A stretch of DNA of 64,000 nucleotides from Dyadobacter sp. Leaf189 (GTDB taxonomy: Bacteria; Bacteroidota; Bacteroidia; Cytophagales; Spirosomataceae): assembly GCF_001424405.1 (NCBI RefSeq), contig NZ_LMPS01000006.1, positions 496,001 to 560,000 of the forward strand, written 5' to 3'. The stretch's first letter is position 1. Each line of letters opens with the position of its first letter. Of this stretch, positions 22,364 to 30,057 are shown piece after piece. Below the pieces are notes generated by a model. That model was not told where the DNA came from, made no database searches, and saw nothing but the letters and a program-made list of their open reading frames with translations. The translations under genes were made by a program, and so were the position numbers.

Positions 22364-22732
22364 ATGTACCCCGCAATGAACAACTCACACGACGAAACCT
22401 CATTGATTGATTTTGCTTATCTGCAGGAAATTACCGGCGGAGATGCCGAATTAAAAAGCGAATTGATCAGCATGTTTGAATCTGAAACTGTTATCCAGCT
22501 TGACAGTATCAGAACAAATTGCAAAGCAGGTGATCTTGACATGCTGAAACAATCCATTCATAAATACAGATCTTCTCTGTTTTCAGTCGGGCTACTTAAT
22601 ACCGCTGCCAAATACAAGGAAATTGAATCAGCTTTGAAAAGAAATGAAACTGTCCCGGATCTTGCGATTCAGCTTGCAGATTTGGAATTGGAATCGAATG
22701 CAGGTTTGGAAATTCTTAAATCTGATCAATAA
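22364..22732 (+). CDS. Second stand-alone Hpt protein
   Basis: A 122-residue helical protein of the Hpt family. The phosphoacceptor is probably His66 in IHKYRSSLFSVG, matching the HxxKSS-like core with Arg in place of Lys. It is the same length as the Hpt protein at 8818 but clearly diverged from it. It should pass phosphate between receiver domains; candidates in this window are the receiver-only protein at 29668, the REC-SpoIIE protein at 12029 and the hybrid kinase at 39457. Its 3' end overlaps the convergent polymerase gene by 7 bases. An ATG four codons in (22376) is a possible alternative start. Confidence 0.82.
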   Translation: MYPAMNNSHDETSLIDFAYLQEITGGDAELKSELISMFESETVIQLDSIRTNCKAGDLDMLKQSIHKYRSSLFSVGLLNTAAKYKEIESALKRNETVPDLAIQLADLELESNAGLEILKSDQ

Positions 22733-24213
22733 TTTCCCTTTACACTTTTTGCTGTTTCCTTTTTATCAATCAGATAGGTTGTGTGCACAATAGCTGCTGC
22801 AATGTAAAAAAGGATATTATTAGGAAATTGCACCAAAGCTTCCTGCGGAAAGTTGCCGATATTAAGTGAGAAAATAACCAAAGTCATCGCGAGACAATAG
22901 GTTCTTAGTTCCGGATTTTTAATGCGGTAAAAGTTATTGATCCCCATTTTTAATACCGAATACATTAAAAAACAAAAGATCAGTAAGCCGATCCAGCCCA
23001 GCTCGACAGCCACACGTATGTAACCGCTGTCAGGCGGGAAAGTTGCCAGGAAAGAATTCGGCGAAAATCGTGCACCCCAGGCACCGGTTGATCCCAATCC
23101 ACCGCCAATGGGGTGTGTCAAAATGTAAGGTTGTATTCTCTTCTGGTTGGCCTTTCTTACATTGAAAGATGCATCATCGGAAGGCCGGAATGCAGTTTGA
23201 AAGCGCGCGATCGTCGGATTTGAGGTGGGGATAATGATCAGGATTATGATAAAAACGGCCGCCACGCAGGAAGCAAACATGATCTTTTTACTGAAATTCA
23301 GTAATGCGAACGGTATCAGCGAAGCGGGTACCAGCACATAAGCACCCCGCGTTCCGGAATAGAGCATCGCCAGAAGAAATGCCCCGATCATTACAACCAG
23401 GATAATCCTTTTGGCCAGGCTTTGTCTGGCCGACAATAAGGCGACGCATATCAGACTGGCGCCGACCATGGTGTAAGAAAAAGAAACCGGGTCAGAAAAA
23501 ATCGAATATTTTCTCCACGCGCCATTGATATACAACAGGCTCACCTGCATGGGATCGCTCCATAAGTCGGCGAGCTCTTGCGGAGCGATGCCGATATATT
23601 CCTGCTTGAAACCATATATTGCACCACAAACTGCAAGTACCAGCCAGGTTTTCAGCACGATACGAATTGCTTCGACGGATCGGAGGTAGTATACAAAAAC
23701 AAAATACATGATCGTAACTGCCGCAACAGACCGCACCGTGTACACCCAGGCCAGCCGGGACTCAGCCCAGGGATTTGCCACCTGGATCAGATTGTAACCG
23801 ATCCATACCAATATCATGATGGATACCGGATTCTTGAATGTACTGATATTCCAGTCTCCTTTTTGTTTCAACTTGATCAGAAAACCGACGATCAGCAGTG
23901 CTTCCAGTCCGTCCATCAACGTTCCGAGCGGGAAATTGATACCGAACCGCAGGATAAAAAAGAGGAAAAAGCCCATGATCAGCAGCACCACAATACCGAA
24001 TATCGGGTAAACAACCACTGCATACACCGCCGGAATAGCTACCATCGCCACCAGCACCATCAGGCCAGCGACCATACCACCATAAATTGTAGCAAGCCCC
24101 AACCCGATCGCAGCCAAAGCCAGCAGCACCATACCGACCGGCGTACTTACCTTATCGATAATGGGCAAATGGATAGAGCGCCTCTCTGATTCAGCTGATA
24201 ATTCGTATTTCAA
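22726..24213 (-). CDS. O-antigen ligase/polymerase-like membrane protein (Wzy/WaaL type)
   Basis: A 495-residue integral membrane protein with about 12 hydrophobic segments and one large periplasmic loop (about residues 330-390, containing RFQTAFRPSDDAS, RKANQKRIQPYILTHPIGG and SPNSFLATFPPDSGYIRV). This layout, with Arg/His-rich loop and HP-(I/L)-G-GLG motif, is typical of the Wzy_C/WaaL family that polymerises or ligates lipid-linked glycans. The only fitting start is TTG at 24211-24213; no in-frame ATG occurs before residue 28. A 47-residue membrane protein gene ends 11 bases upstream. The gene belongs to the minus-strand EPS operon reading from 30057 toward here and is its last member. Confidence 0.85.
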   Translation of the reverse strand: MKYELSAESERRSIHLPIIDKVSTPVGMVLLALAAIGLGLATIYGGMVAGLMVLVAMVAIPAVYAVVVYPIFGIVVLLIMGFFLFFILRFGINFPLGTLMDGLEALLIVGFLIKLKQKGDWNISTFKNPVSIMILVWIGYNLIQVANPWAESRLAWVYTVRSVAAVTIMYFVFVYYLRSVEAIRIVLKTWLVLAVCGAIYGFKQEYIGIAPQELADLWSDPMQVSLLYINGAWRKYSIFSDPVSFSYTMVGASLICVALLSARQSLAKRIILVVMIGAFLLAMLYSGTRGAYVLVPASLIPFALLNFSKKIMFASCVAAVFIIILIIIPTSNPTIARFQTAFRPSDDASFNVRKANQKRIQPYILTHPIGGGLGSTGAWGARFSPNSFLATFPPDSGYIRVAVELGWIGLLIFCFLMYSVLKMGINNFYRIKNPELRTYCLAMTLVIFSLNIGNFPQEALVQFPNNILFYIAAAIVHTTYLIDKKETAKSVKGNY

Positions 24214-24373: not shown

Positions 24374-25546
24374 TCAGGGTGCTTTACGGTAATTGTGCTT
24401 GGTTGCAACTGAAATCTTATTCGCTTTTCTGGCTTTAAGCAGCGAAAGCACCTGATAATACATGAAGACCGGAATGGAAGTAAGCGAGCGGAGAATGCGT
24501 TTGTCAACCGAACTGTCAAACAACGGAACAAGGAACCCGGCCACAAAAGTGAGCAAAGCTGCCAGCCACCACGCACTCATCAATGGATCAATCCAAAAAT
24601 TCACAAGCATGAACAGTACTGAGATAATCAGAAAAATGAAAAGGGGCGGCCGCAAAAGCACAAACCCAAAAAGGAATTGGTTCCAGTTCAGGTTCTTTAC
24701 TCCGCTGAAAATCAGATCAAATCCAAACTTAAAATACTTGAACCAGGTATTGATCCAGCGCGAGCGCTGGTTAACAAGCTGAGTTGATTCAGAAGTTTTT
24801 TCATCCCACACCACAGCCTCTTCCCGAAAAGCAATGCGGTGCTTCCGTGTGATGATTTCTTTTTGAAGTATTTTGTCAAAACCCGCACCCACTATATCCA
24901 GATTGCCGAGCGCCTCTTTGTACAACGCTACCGTAAACGCCATTCCGGAACCCGAAAGTGTCGCCGACGAGCCCGCTTCAAACAGCAGTTGACCATCATA
25001 AAAATGGTAGTAAATGTCGCGTGCAGCGTCCAGACACGCATAAACCGAGTCGAGGTTCTTTGCTTTACGTACACCCTGAACCGCCACGAAGCCGTCATTG
25101 AAACAAACATCCAGCTCGTTGAGCAGCTCCGGATCTACGATATTATCGCTGTCGATAATGACAAGCCGCTCGTGCGCTCTCCTGAAATGGTTGATCGCAA
25201 AAAAGTGAGAACGCGTATTGCTCGCCAGCACAGTCGGCGGGTGCAATACGATTACCCTGTCACTTTCCAGGTTCAATCCCGACGCGTCGCATTTGTCAGC
25301 GACCACGTACACCAGGTAATTGGAATAGTTAAGTTTTGATATGGAAGCAATTACATCCGGCAACTGCTGGGTTTGCTCATAGGTCGCTACAATCAGCGCG
25401 TAATCTGCTTCGGGGTGTTTCTCAGGTTTCCCGGTTGCTTCTTCTTTTTTGGTAAACAGATTAAACATCAGCAGCAATACCGGAAAAATCAGGTAAAAGC
25501 CGATCGCCATCTGGCATAACCACCATAAGAACCAGACTATTGTCAT
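24374..25546 (-). CDS. Membrane-bound processive family 2 glycosyltransferase
   Basis: A 390-residue GT2 enzyme with a membrane helix at the N-terminus (about residues 7-28), a GT-A domain and several C-terminal helices (from about 290). Motifs: YALIVATYEQTQQL, VVADKCDASG, LVIIDSDNIVDPELL (DxD), FVAVQGVR, and a QxxRW motif in LVNQRSRWINTWFKY (about residues 256-270), the hallmark of processive beta-glycosyltransferases such as cellulose, hyaluronan and PNAG synthases. A run of synthesis across the membrane is therefore possible. Its ATG overlaps the stop of the Wzc-like gene by four bases, so the two are translationally coupled. Confidence 0.88.
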   Translation of the reverse strand: MTIVWFLWWLCQMAIGFYLIFPVLLLMFNLFTKKEEATGKPEKHPEADYALIVATYEQTQQLPDVIASISKLNYSNYLVYVVADKCDASGLNLESDRVIVLHPPTVLASNTRSHFFAINHFRRAHERLVIIDSDNIVDPELLNELDVCFNDGFVAVQGVRKAKNLDSVYACLDAARDIYYHFYDGQLLFEAGSSATLSGSGMAFTVALYKEALGNLDIVGAGFDKILQKEIITRKHRIAFREEAVVWDEKTSESTQLVNQRSRWINTWFKYFKFGFDLIFSGVKNLNWNQFLFGFVLLRPPLFIFLIISVLFMLVNFWIDPLMSAWWLAALLTFVAGFLVPLFDSSVDKRILRSLTSIPVFMYYQVLSLLKARKANKISVATKHNYRKAP

Positions 25547-27726
25547 TCCGCCACGTGTTTGGAGACCCTACCCGATTGTTTCAAAATATCCTGCGCGCCG
25601 GTTAATACCCAGCCAGCCATTTTTCCATTGAGACCTTTCAGATACTCGATTTTTGAACGGTCGTCATAAGAAATACTGTGTCCGCTTTCAAAAACAGCCA
25701 CAACCGCATCTGAGAATGTGATCCATTCCTTGGCTTTGTTCATCGACACGAGTGAACCTGCGTCCACCAGGATGGTATCATATTGTGTTTTCAATGTAGC
25801 CAGTGCTTCCTTGATCCTCGTTTCATCGGCGAGTTCAAGGAGCGAAACATCACCACCTTTATTGGCCAGGATCGAAATCGAACCATGCGCAGCAGTCGTG
25901 ACCGTGTCTCCTTTGGTAAGGTAATCTTCCAGGTACCGCGAGCCTGTATTAAGCTTCGTGATATCAGCTGCATTGAAGTTTCCATCAATAATCAACACCC
26001 TTTTGTTGATCTTGGAAAATGCCCACGCAAGGCTCAATGTAAGCAAAGTTTTTCCGCTTCCTTCCGAAAGGCTGGTGATCGAAAGGATCTTTGGATCGGG
26101 AAATTCATTGTCCAGCTCAAAGCGAATGGAGCGGATCAGGTTCCTGAATAATTCGATTTTACCCTCACTCGTATGCTCATTCTGCAACTCACTGATACGG
26201 AAACCACCTCCGAGCTGATTAACAAAACCAAGCACCGGCCGGTCGGTCGCATTGGCAAGCTGCTGCGGGTACCGGATCGATGAGTCGAAAAAGTAAAGGA
26301 TAAAGAGGATAAACAAGCAAAATGCGAAGCTGATCACTCCTGACAGTATAACCAAAACGATCTTTTTAGAAGGCTGTATTACACCTGGAAGTGCTTTTTC
26401 CGCGACTTTGAGTGTTGCAGGAAAGCTCGACGCCAGCCGCGCATCGTTATATTTTTGCAATGCTTCCATATACTCGCGGCCTGCTATATCAATCGCAGTT
26501 TCAAACTCCTGCACCCGTGCTTCATTGGGTACCAGGCCGTCGAACTTGTTGTTCAGCGTTTTCAGCTCTGCTTCAATAGTTGCCAGACTGTTCGCCGCGA
26601 GGTCCCGCTCCACTTCCATGGTCAGCTTTTGGGTAACCAGGTTCTCCTTGAGCGAGAGCGGACTGTACACATACCTGTCAGTAGACTCGTTAATCTGTGC
26701 CGACAATTTGGTCTGGATCGAGTCGAGCCCAGCTTTATATTTCGGGTCAAAGTTGCTTTTTACATAAGCTTCATTCAACGCGCGGAGCCGCTGTTTTGTG
26801 GCGACAATGCTCTGGTTAATGCCCGAAACCGCACTTTCGAAGTATTTGCGATCATTCGCACTGAATCGATTGTCAATATTCCGGATCGCCACACCGTACG
26901 CAATCACATCTTTCTTGGCAACTTCTCTTCTCAGCTCAAACTCCGCCATTTGTCCGTACAAGCTTTTTGCCTGTTCGTCCAGGTTCAAAACCCGGTTCTT
27001 GATCTTATAATCACGCAATCCGTTCATCTGAACGCGGAGCGCCATTCTTTTTTGTTCGAGAAAATCGGCAAGGAAGCTGATGGTACGGTTGTAAGTATCC
27101 GTCAGCCTGGCAGAGTACATTTTGATAAACTCGCTGCTAAGCGTATTGATCACAAACGATGCCATTTGTGAATCGTCCGACTCGTATTCAATGTTTATAA
27201 AATCACTGTTGGACAGTCGGAAAATGGTCAGCTTCTTCTGCACAGACTCGGCGTCGTAGCCCATGTCCTTCAAAATAGCCAGCAACTTCTTCTCCTGCGG
27301 AACCGCTGGCGAGAGCTCCTGTTGTGTCTTGTACTTTTGCGTAAGCACATTCACAGCCTGGGCGCGGGCATTTTGGTCCAGTGCCTGTAAGTCTTTGGAA
27401 GCCGATCTGAAATCATCCTTCTCAGCCGCTTTCAGATCGTGAAGCAGTAACTGATAAGAAACCTGATCGAGTACCTTCTTTTGCGACATCATTTGTATGA
27501 TGTTGTCAAACTTCCTGGCAATCTCGAAATCCTGCTCAGTGCCGCTGCTCATCAAACCCTGCTCCGTTTTGTCAACCAAGCCTGTTGCAATGCTTCCGTG
27601 CGATTTGAACTGGTCGGGAAGCGCTTTCACCAAAAAGTACGCTGCCACAACTGTGATCAGCGGAACAAAGATCAGTACGAACTTATTTTTATATAGTATT
27701 CTCAGAAATTGCGAGAGCTCTGTCAT
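25543..27726 (-). CDS. Wzc-like polysaccharide co-polymerase with degenerate BY-kinase domain
   Basis: A 727-residue protein. Transmembrane helices at about residues 15-33 and 455-480 enclose a long periplasmic Wzz-type region with coiled coils. The cytosolic C-terminal domain has Walker A (SLSEGSGKT, about residue 555). In Walker A' the usual DxD is replaced (VLIIDGNFN) and the Walker B-like site reads TILVDAGS. There is no C-terminal tyrosine cluster; the protein ends KQSGRVSKHVAE. Full BY-kinases control chain length and export through autophosphorylation of such a cluster, so this one may bind ATP without cycling by tyrosine phosphorylation. It overlaps both neighbours by four bases. Confidence 0.88.
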   Translation of the reverse strand: MTELSQFLRILYKNKFVLIFVPLITVVAAYFLVKALPDQFKSHGSIATGLVDKTEQGLMSSGTEQDFEIARKFDNIIQMMSQKKVLDQVSYQLLLHDLKAAEKDDFRSASKDLQALDQNARAQAVNVLTQKYKTQQELSPAVPQEKKLLAILKDMGYDAESVQKKLTIFRLSNSDFINIEYESDDSQMASFVINTLSSEFIKMYSARLTDTYNRTISFLADFLEQKRMALRVQMNGLRDYKIKNRVLNLDEQAKSLYGQMAEFELRREVAKKDVIAYGVAIRNIDNRFSANDRKYFESAVSGINQSIVATKQRLRALNEAYVKSNFDPKYKAGLDSIQTKLSAQINESTDRYVYSPLSLKENLVTQKLTMEVERDLAANSLATIEAELKTLNNKFDGLVPNEARVQEFETAIDIAGREYMEALQKYNDARLASSFPATLKVAEKALPGVIQPSKKIVLVILSGVISFAFCLFILFILYFFDSSIRYPQQLANATDRPVLGFVNQLGGGFRISELQNEHTSEGKIELFRNLIRSIRFELDNEFPDPKILSITSLSEGSGKTLLTLSLAWAFSKINKRVLIIDGNFNAADITKLNTGSRYLEDYLTKGDTVTTAAHGSISILANKGGDVSLLELADETRIKEALATLKTQYDTILVDAGSLVSMNKAKEWITFSDAVVAVFESGHSISYDDRSKIEYLKGLNGKMAGWVLTGAQDILKQSGRVSKHVAE

Positions 27727-28391
27727 TTGATGTCTTCCAATTTTTGTCCCAATAATTCTTCCAGCGCGCTTTTAGAGATAAGCACATCTGCCTCCGCCGA
27801 TACCTTGGCCTGCTGCCTGTCCGAAATGACCACCAGCGCTTTACTATACTCTTCCAGCGTGGTTTCGCCCTTTTCGTATTTGAATTTGAGCTCTTCGGCC
27901 AATGCTTCCACATCGTGCAATGCATCTGCCTTGATCCGCAGCAGCACTTTGTATTGCGCATATGCAATGTAACGCTGCTTCACGTCGGCTTCCAGGTTCA
28001 GCATGTATGTGTCGCGATCGTGCTCAACAGCCTGCAATTCGCTTTTGGCCTGCTTGATCAAAGCCGGCTTTTGCAGCAGTGAGCCGATGTTCACGAAAAA
28101 ACCAAACTGGTATCCATTCAGAAAATTGGGGTTTATGGAGCTCGCCAGCCGATCCGGGCTATACAGATAGGAGAATGAAAGGATTTCAAAATAGGAAAGC
28201 TTCAACTTTTTGGCATTGTAAGTGCCTGCGTCAACCCGTGACTGATATAGCTTCAACTTAGGGTAGTTTTTTTTGGCGATCTCAACCAGCTTCTCTAAGT
28301 AGGGAAAGGAAAGTTCGTCCGACAATGCATTTTGTGCCTTTGCGGGAGCCAGTGAGATCAGGAAAATTAATAGTGAGCAGAAATATTTCAT
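27723..28391 (-). CDS. Half-length TolC-like (OEP family) protein
   Basis: A 222-residue protein with a signal peptide (about residues 1-19, ending APAKAQ) followed by what looks like one outer membrane efflux repeat. Long amphipathic helices (LVEIAKKNYPKLKLYQSRVDAG, split here as YPKLKLYQSRVDAG; and LRIKADALHDVEALAEELKF) flank a short segment that could supply two beta strands (SPDRLASSINPNFLNGYQFG). Normal TolC-type channels are about 420-480 residues with two such repeats. The frame is intact, with a proper start and stop and a four-base overlap with the Wzc-like gene, so it is not a fragment. A Wza-type exporter is not seen in the window, so this could be the outer-membrane or periplasmic partner. 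Confidence 0.75.
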   Translation of the reverse strand: MKYFCSLLIFLISLAPAKAQNALSDELSFPYLEKLVEIAKKNYPKLKLYQSRVDAGTYNAKKLKLSYFEILSFSYLYSPDRLASSINPNFLNGYQFGFFVNIGSLLQKPALIKQAKSELQAVEHDRDTYMLNLEADVKQRYIAYAQYKVLLRIKADALHDVEALAEELKFKYEKGETTLEEYSKALVVISDRQQAKVSAEADVLISKSALEELLGQKLEDIK

Positions 28392-28438: not shown

Positions 28439-29653
28439 CTAAACGTTTTCGGATTGTAAAAGTGCGGGGAAGGTTTTTAGGATAATCTGCATATCCATTT
28501 TGAATGAAAACTCCTTCGCATAAGTAATGTCAAGCTGCGTCCTCTCCTCTTCCGACATATCTGCTTTTCCTTTTCCTCTCTTGGTAACCTGCCACAGTCC
28601 CGTTAAGCCGGCTGGTCCTGCAAAACGGAAAATCTTGTCGTCGGTTGTCATTTTTTCAGCCTCATAAAGCGGCAACGGCCGGTTGCCCACCAGCGACATA
28701 TCGCCTTTCAGGATGTTGATCAGCTGTGGAAGTTCGTCGATACTTGAATTGCGCAGGAACTGGCCGAACCGCGTGATCCTCGGATCGTTCTGGAACTTCA
28801 TAAATGCGGCTTTTTGCTCCTTCTGGAAGTGGTACAGCTTTTCGCAGATTTCCTTACCATCGTGGAACAGCATGCTTTTGCATTGGTTTCCGGCCTGGCA
28901 CTCCGCGCACAGCCCGCTGTGTTCCATCTGCTGTACCGGCTCCGTCGATTTATTGTACATACTCAATGCGGCCATTTTGCGGATCTGCTGGTCTGCATCG
29001 GTACGCATGGTGCGGAACTTGTAGAGGTCGAAAATCTTGTAACCGCTCCCTACCCTTTTGGATTTGTAAAAAACAGGCCCTTTCGAATCCAGGCGGATCA
29101 GGATGGCGACGATAATGAACACCGGCAGCAGCAAAAGGACAGCCGTGCCTGTGGTGATGATATCAATACTACGCTTCCATAAGGGCGTATGCGCACTTTG
29201 GTCGCCAATCTTCTGCAGTGCCTTGTTGGCAACATACCACTGTCTTTTCTTGAAGTACTTAATCCTGGTGATCAGGTCCCCATCGTCGAAGCGGACAGAG
29301 AAGATATCGTCTGCGTGCTTCTGACGTGCAGTTTCGATGGACGCGCGCGTCAGCTTGTCGACCATGAGTACAAACGGGATATTGCCAAAACCGGCAGAGC
29401 TCCGGATATAATCGAGCAGCTCAATGCCGCCGCTGTTCTCGTGCGCTATGATCACATCTGCCGGAAAATTTTCCTGGAGTGCAGCAAGCAGGTTCTCGCG
29501 GCTGCTGAAATACTCTACCTGCAGCGAGTCGGCGAAGCGTTCTGTGAAATTAATGTAATGATCAAAATCGACGTTCAGGTACATAACCCTGAACTGAGCT
29601 GTGTAAGACTTCGTCTCAGCGCCCGGCGTCTGGATTTCGCTTGCAGTTTCCAT
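28439..29653 (-). CDS. Priming sugar transferase with N-terminal receiver-like domain
   Basis: A 404-residue protein. The C-terminal part is a bacterial sugar transferase (WcaJ/WbaP type) that moves a sugar-1-phosphate onto undecaprenyl phosphate and starts repeat-unit synthesis: membrane helix at about 165-190, KSKRVGSGYKIFDLYKFRTMR at about 200, and DELPQLINILKGDMSLVGNRP near 320 (each motif split over the active site). The first about 140 residues look like a receiver fold (FRVMYLNVDFDHYI, PADVIIAHENSGGIELLDYI, IPFVLMVDKL), but the phosphoacceptor Asp position reads His-Glu. Between the two transferase halves is an insertion with four cysteines (C-x2-C-x5-C-x10-C, about residues 245-267). 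A receiver-only gene lies 14 bases upstream. Confidence 0.86.
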   Translation of the reverse strand: METASEIQTPGAETKSYTAQFRVMYLNVDFDHYINFTERFADSLQVEYFSSRENLLAALQENFPADVIIAHENSGGIELLDYIRSSAGFGNIPFVLMVDKLTRASIETARQKHADDIFSVRFDDGDLITRIKYFKKRQWYVANKALQKIGDQSAHTPLWKRSIDIITTGTAVLLLLPVFIIVAILIRLDSKGPVFYKSKRVGSGYKIFDLYKFRTMRTDADQQIRKMAALSMYNKSTEPVQQMEHSGLCAECQAGNQCKSMLFHDGKEICEKLYHFQKEQKAAFMKFQNDPRITRFGQFLRNSSIDELPQLINILKGDMSLVGNRPLPLYEAEKMTTDDKIFRFAGPAGLTGLWQVTKRGKGKADMSEEERTQLDITYAKEFSFKMDMQIILKTFPALLQSENV

Positions 29654-29667
29654 CTTTTCTAAACTGA

Positions 29668-30057
29668 TTAGGAGTATCGTTTGGCGCGGCGGAGTATCGC
29701 ATTGATCTTGGCGTGTACCTCCATCGGGTTAAATGGTTTCACCATAAAATCATCCGCTCCCAGGTTCAGGCACTGGATACGCTCGCTGCTCTCGTCGGAG
29801 CCGGACAGGATGATGATGGGTATCTCTGAGTAGAGGTTACTCGCTTTGGTCACTTTCAAAAATTCCTTTCCGCTCAGGTTGGGCATATGCAGGTCCGCAA
29901 TGATCAGATCGGCGTGATTGCCTTCTTCCAGCCAAAGCATACCCTCTGAACCGTCACTTTTAATGATAACGTTAAAATCTTTCTTTAAAAAATGCTCTAA
30001 TATTTTGGTGATACTCGGCTCGTCGTCGATGATCAACAAACTTCTTTTAATGTCCAT
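29668..30057 (-). CDS. Single-domain response regulator (receiver only)
   Basis: A 129-residue CheY-like protein with a complete receiver: LLIIDDEPS (acidic pair at residues 11-12), phosphoacceptor Asp55 in IIADLHMPN, Ser in IILSGSDES and the conserved Lys in FMVKPFNP. There is no output domain. It is the first gene of the minus-strand EPS operon, 14 bases before the priming transferase with a receiver-like domain. It may act as a phosphate sink, a phosphorelay intermediate with the Hpt proteins, or a direct binding partner of the transferase. The 400-base region upstream has no gene and should contain the operon promoter. Confidence 0.9.
   Translation of the reverse strand: MDIKRSLLIIDDEPSITKILEHFLKKDFNVIIKSDGSEGMLWLEEGNHADLIIADLHMPNLSGKEFLKVTKASNLYSEIPIIILSGSDESSERIQCLNLGADDFMVKPFNPMEVHAKINAILRRAKRYS

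Follow-up and report, generated by a model that had tools for sequence, protein, structure and literature searches.

Why should a priming sugar transferase begin with a receiver domain that lacks the phosphorylation residues, and why should its gene lie directly behind one for an intact receiver? The question is raised by a gene pair on the minus strand of a 64,000-nucleotide stretch of the Dyadobacter sp. Leaf189 genome (contig NZ_LMPS01000006.1, positions 496,001 to 560,000; the whole stretch is termed the window herein, and coordinates count from its first nucleotide). The transferase (28439 to 29653) is predicted to be a monotopic phosphoglycosyl transferase (monoPGT) of 404 amino acids with a degenerate receiver at its N terminus, and it matches PF02397 with an E value of 3.3e-58 (196.6 bits; cutoff, 27). 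Upstream of it, across a spacer of 14 bases (29654 to 29667), lies the gene for a receiver-only response regulator of 129 amino acids (29668 to 30057; PF00072, E value of 7.3e-23). A partnership of the two proteins is well supported by the sequence comparisons described below.

These comparisons refer to 72 thinned members of the transferase family, the window protein included, which span 28 family codes and one named Prevotella locus. Thinning removed every one of the 22 named Dyadobacter loci, 33 of 36 gene-bearing genomes of the genus (the genome under study, G029, and G031 were retained), and four of the five Prevotella loci; matches weaker than 1e-80 in the class and phylum samples were also left out, and not every one of the 72 represents a different genus.

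A predicted receiver fold without phosphorylation residues

A preliminary description of this DNA had read the N-terminal part of the transferase, by eye, as a receiver fold lacking the phosphoacceptor Asp, and both parts of that reading hold. An AlphaFold2 model and fold comparison agree in predicting a receiver fold for this domain (approximately residues 20 to 140; 29234 to 29596), and the same fold is predicted for the N-terminal domain of a Prevotella homologue, L071; L070, a close relative of L071, gave no significant receiver sequence match (E value of 0.13). The alignments behind the models held 26 rows for the window protein and 14 for L071, mostly close relatives, and the models are poor past approximately residue 190 of the former (block predicted local distance difference test [pLDDT] scores of 24 to 56) and residue 170 of the latter; those parts were not used. 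Ahead of the catalytic domain, the predicted model holds the receiver fold and one linking helix only, and thus not the four-helix transmembrane bundle plus domain of unknown function (DUF) that mark a large monoPGT. The Response_reg profile matched 16 of 30 family members at E values of ≤0.01, the window transferase not among them.

In the fused domain of the window protein, the phosphorylation residues (DD, D, S/T, and K) are replaced by N, V, H71, V, and V, with His71 (29441 to 29443) at the phosphoacceptor position; Asp is found at that position in only 12 of 42 fused domains. Other residues have been kept. Receivers of the OmpR/PhoB type dimerize via the alpha4-beta5-alpha5 face, in which we take D101 and R115 of PhoB to be the positions of one conserved salt bridge. 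The residue corresponding to D101 is acidic in all 42 fused domains and that corresponding to R115 is Arg in 40 of them, and of 52 partner receivers, 42 have Asp at the first of these positions and 43 have Arg or Lys at the second.

The closest kin of the fused domain is the partner itself. When 58 fused domains were queried against a pool of 62 partner receivers and 59 other receivers (the latter set by position and holding diverse subfamilies), 47 matched a receiver at an E value of <1e-3, and the best match was a partner receiver in 46 of these 47, which suggests that the partner was duplicated and that the copy was then fused and decayed.

The transferase is paired with a receiver-only gene

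The upstream gene encodes, as first described, a complete receiver without an output domain: PF00072 covers residues 8 to 118 of 129, the active site is intact (D11, D12, D55 [29893 to 29895], S85, and K107), and a KPFNP signature is present. D55 is conserved in 58 of 62 partner receivers, and Ser/Thr at position 85 and K107 in all 62.

An N-terminal extension was found in 59 of the 72 relatives, and 57 of these 59 have a receiver gene on the same strand within 300 bases (the exceptions are L041 and L215). In the genus, the receiver gene lies directly upstream of the transferase in all 36 genomes that carry the transferase. The control set comprised 30 of the listed PF02397 matches and 4 from the genome under study; none of the 29 genes from outside the family (25 from 14 family-carrying genomes and 4 from the genome under study) has an adjacent receiver gene, and all 5 family members in the set do (L164 was counted as a member by score and motif). 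Together with pairs that persist where no polysaccharide gene was recognized directly downstream (L111, L115, and L119, judged by eye from protein starts) and with a published precedent in Myxococcus (PMC12802240), these counts bear out the functional partnership that had been proposed.

Arrangements around the pair vary. One genome (G136) that already carries a pair has a second one (L179). In seven loci of one family (L108 to L113 and L116), the partner receiver gene is directly preceded by a frame of 455 to 478 amino acids that starts with a receiver and ends 362 to 430 bases ahead of the transferase frame.

A proposed two-gene output module and its alternatives

We propose that the receiver and the transferase form a two-gene output module of two-component signaling, and we lean toward this explanation as a whole. 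A kinase or Hpt protein encoded elsewhere would phosphorylate the free receiver, which would then bind the transferase directly (through the fused domain, the catalytic domain, or both) and shift its active or dimeric state, whatever the sign of that control. Judged from its family and operon, the transferase would transfer a sugar phosphate to polyprenyl phosphate, which is the first committed step in the synthesis of a Wzx/Wzy-type polysaccharide. Its N-terminal domain would have arisen by duplication of the partner receiver and, no longer phosphorylated, would have been retained as a surface for docking. A heterodimer of the free receiver and the fused domain is plausible.

Several observations weigh against this account. 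Small monoPGTs are described as functional monomers in PMC12802240, and 11 of 53 fused domains gave no receiver-profile match at an E value of <1e-3. The kept Asp/Arg pair is as compatible with a homodimer of fused domains as with a heterodimer with the free receiver. Asp at the PhoB-D101 position is weakened as a signature of the dimer face, since 30 of 37 other nearby receivers share it; Arg at the PhoB-R115 position is more telling, being found in 3 of the 37, all of them partner-like receivers (of L148 to L150). The phospho-site of the partner receiver is itself Glu in three and His in one of the 62. Finally, the pairing does not depend on the fused domain, and in the window the pair sits in an operon, a setting in which neighbors could stay together through co-transcription alone.

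The receivers with Glu in place of the phosphoacceptor Asp are those of L132, L142, and L146, and they could be locked-on forms; L132 stands apart from the L142/L146 pair on the tree, suggesting that the change happened perhaps twice.

The transferases without an extension bear most directly on which domain the receiver would contact. The preliminary description asked whether the receiver gene is always adjacent in homologues, which is nearly so where the extension is present and not so where it is absent: 5 of 13 extension-less relatives have an adjacent receiver gene, and 10 of 13 have one within 3.5 kilobases (kb). The receiver can thus matter without the fused domain, which makes contact with the catalytic domain a possibility to reckon with. 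The free receiver might act on the catalytic domain or on another protein of the operon, with the dead fused receiver serving only as a scaffold or as the interface of a transferase homodimer, as the DUF does in WbaP/EpsZ; we regard this as somewhat unlikely. Besides the extension-less relatives, it is favored by partial distance correlations, which remove shared descent only in part and in which the partner receiver tracks the catalytic domain (r = 0.47) more than the fused domain (r = 0.37; permutation p of 0.0005 for each; n = 57); fused and catalytic domains given the receiver reach a partial r of only 0.17, although they belong to the same polypeptide. In the EpsZ model, moreover, the receiver touches both the DUF and the catalytic domain (PMC12802240). 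Yet an adjacent receiver gene is far commoner with the extension than without it, a difference for which the tree offers few independent changes (loss of the extension together with loss of the receiver gives one independent pair on the starred branches and four on all branches, which is too few), and the fused domain is akin to the partner subfamily, which fits a receiver-receiver pairing.

Three of the extension-less loci (L148, L149, and L150) have a partner-like receiver gene 2.1 to 2.5 kb upstream, with a frame of 676 to 698 amino acids in between; the receiver of L149 has Asn at the phospho-site.

Neighborhood might also account for the pair without any direct contact, the two genes being co-transcribed and co-inherited while the receiver works elsewhere. 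The pair does often lie beside polysaccharide genes, with Wzc-like genes in 60 of 87 loci scanned (replicates included), but its persistence in L111, L115, and L119, the lack of an adjacent receiver in the other sugar transferases, and the published evidence of direct contact in the Myxococcus analogue (PMC12802240) make this very improbable.

As to the source of the signal that the proposed module would receive, a motif scan found a histidine-kinase-like gene starting within 5 kb in 12 of 72 loci, and no kinase is fixed beside the pair. In L206, L207, and L209, whose transferases lack the extension, a hybrid kinase frame of 686 to 721 amino acids lies directly upstream of the receiver gene, giving the order kinase-receiver-transferase. 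In the window, a single Hpt protein (22364 to 22732, plus strand; PF01627, E value of 1.2e-5) is encoded convergently with the operon, overlapping its last gene, which is Wzy-like, by 7 bases. It is a possible phosphodonor, to be taken as a lead only; of the 22 named Dyadobacter loci, 8 have an Hpt-like gene in the 8 kb of sequence examined.

A four-cysteine insert in the catalytic domain

The cysteine insertion noted earlier in the catalytic region is conserved in much of the family and proved separable from the receiver partnership. In the window protein, the motif C249-x2-C252-x5-C258-x11-C270 (Cys4; 28844 to 28909) lies inside an insert between the KFRTM motif and NDPRIT, and C-x2-C-x4-9-C-x8-14-C was found in 45 of 72 members. 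Four cysteines are present in the insert of 41 members, five in 4, one in 2, and none in 25; none has two or three. The best tree requires a minimum of 10 changes of the trait, and such all-or-none occurrence with repeated change is as a shared metal site predicts. The insert has the four co-conserved cysteines by which zinc-finger or iron-sulfur domains are recognized; it is a separate feature that probably binds metal, as the cysteine pattern suggests. Located between the KFRTM motif and the catalytic dyad, it may shape the rim of the active site, and in the proposed module it would probably hold one metal ion that shapes this loop. Confidence in the model is low here (block pLDDT scores of 48 to 56, residues 241 to 280).

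Known zinc fingers did not account for the insert: Pfam gave only scattered weak matches (best E value of 0.017, in one of 19 members), and the PDB gave none at E values of ≤10. The insert is only 26 to 28 residues long in L040 and L041, and Prevotella loci L070 to L074 have a Met/Asp-rich stretch (MMMMDMGMESDMM) in place of the four cysteines.

Cys4 also occurs in four relatives with neither an extension nor an adjacent receiver (L210, L211, L212, and L214; in L210 and L212 a receiver gene lies 2.5 to 2.7 kb upstream), so the cysteines are not necessarily part of a receiver mechanism. Homologues with neither an adjacent receiver nor the cysteines, which had been named as counterexamples to the proposed partnership, number 5 of 72 (L041, L148, L149, L150, and L213), and of these only L041 has the extension. 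The four Cys4-bearing relatives (L210, L211, L212, and L214), the all-or-none pattern, and its repeated change on the tree would also suit a redox or metal sensor that gates the enzyme by itself, independently of phosphorylation. A structural zinc site, however, accounts for the same pattern, Cys4 is absent from 27 of 72 members, and no credible Pfam family or PDB sequence match was found; we consider such a sensor quite unlikely.

A more far-reaching version of the two-gene module would make it a phylum-wide switch, in which the receiver was duplicated and the dead copy fused as a dedicated dock, the first committed step is gated jointly by the pairing of phosphorylated with dead receivers and by a Cys4 loop holding a metal, and the free receiver is locked on by Asp-to-Glu changes in some lineages. 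As a combination, this is tentative and, in our judgment, unlikely to hold in full.

Locus and distribution

On the minus strand, the operon runs from the receiver gene and the transferase to genes for a short outer membrane protein of 222 amino acids with a single OEP domain (27723 to 28391; PF02321, E value of 3.4e-19), a Wzz/Wzc-like chain-length protein with an AAA domain (25543 to 27726; PF13614, E value of 4e-7; PF02706, E value of 0.00026, below its cutoff; similar genes lie downstream in distant relatives), a GT2-family glycosyltransferase (24374 to 25546; PF13641, E value of 1.3e-31), and a Wzy/O-antigen ligase-like membrane protein (22726 to 24213; PF04932, E value of 6.4e-12). The OEP frame starts 648 to 766 bases past the transferase in 17 of 22 named Dyadobacter loci, versus 52 to 61 bases otherwise; in L051, the one inspected of those 17, an opposite-strand frame of 218 amino acids lies between. 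A scan of the window for Bacteroidetes-type promoters gave 2 matches (2.3 expected) and none upstream of the receiver-transferase pair.

The catalytic domain (residues 160 to 399; 28457 to 29176) carries D164-x12-P177 (the re-entrant helix motif), the dyad D306-E307 (28733 to 28738), and G-N-R-P; the meanings of helix motif and dyad are those given in PMC12802240. DX12P and G-N-R-P were found in all 72 members and the Asp-Glu dyad pattern in 69; 26 of 29 nonfamily PF02397 genes read G-P-R-P, and the remaining 3 gave no motif match. Models for large monoPGTs score far below their cutoffs (WcaJ, 200 of 411 bits; WbaP, 199.5 of 403; EpsZ, 165 of 800). The 72 members fall on one side of a branch from six outgroup transferases (Shimodaira-Hasegawa-like approximate likelihood ratio test [SH-aLRT], 99, with a program warning about long branches at that point); of the 75 inner branches of the tree, 21 are weak. 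The genome under study has five PF02397 matches, the transferase included.

Among 395 genomes sampled from the class, 47 gave a match at an E value of ≤1e-80, as did 31 of 395 from the phylum; the two samples overlap. The transferase is present in 36 of 37 genomes of the genus, the sole miss, G032, being 81% complete. The transferase led to 27 named loci, of which the 22 closest are from Dyadobacter (best, 92% identity) and the other 5 from Prevotella.

Comparison with known systems

PglC-type small monoPGTs share the catalytic domain, DX12P, and the Asp-Glu dyad with the Dyadobacter enzyme and are not known to have a Cys4 insert. The PglC type consists of the catalytic core only, according to PMC10942596, and so has no N-terminal domain. 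Receiver domains on small monoPGTs were reported earlier (O'Toole et al. 2021, as cited in PMC12802240), a feature that the Dyadobacter enzyme shares. In the model organism Bacteroides thetaiotaomicron, BT0523-BT0524 is described as a transferase with its cognate regulator, responsive to iron and colitis and with both genes changed approximately twofold in an iron table (PMC10434189); it may belong to the same family.

Apart from this mention, no receiver-fused transferase of Bacteroidota was found in the accessible text of the open-licence PubMed Central (PMC) literature, and the main text of PMC12802240 holds no word beginning with "bacteroid". What appears to be new, in that it was not found in print in the same literature, is a Bacteroidota family in which the enzyme bears a decayed, partner-like receiver as a fusion, the gene for the partner lies next to it, and the catalytic domain is interrupted by a Cys4 insert. 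The pair recurs in many Bacteroidota, where polysaccharide synthesis is probably switched directly by phosphorylation, as sequence comparison suggests. The evidence points toward a phospho-control in Bacteroidota, Prevotella relatives included, that acts directly, rather than through transcription, on the first committed step in making surface polysaccharides. The pair also offers a compact two-protein system for asking by what means a receiver can regulate a monotopic membrane enzyme and why a phosphorylation-dead receiver is kept.

The closest known counterpart is that of Myxococcus xanthus, in which phosphorylated EpsW, a single-domain receiver, activates the large monoPGT EpsZ (Schwabe et al. 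2025, PMC12802240); with it and the receiver-bearing small monoPGTs, both ingredients of the module are already in print. Both systems have a single-domain receiver gene together with a monotopic PGT that starts a polysaccharide; there, the first step is under post-translational control, and here the likeness consists of gene pairing and homology only. EpsZ, being of the large type, has a DUF and four transmembrane helices, whereas the Dyadobacter enzyme has a receiver-derived N terminus and the Cys4 insert.
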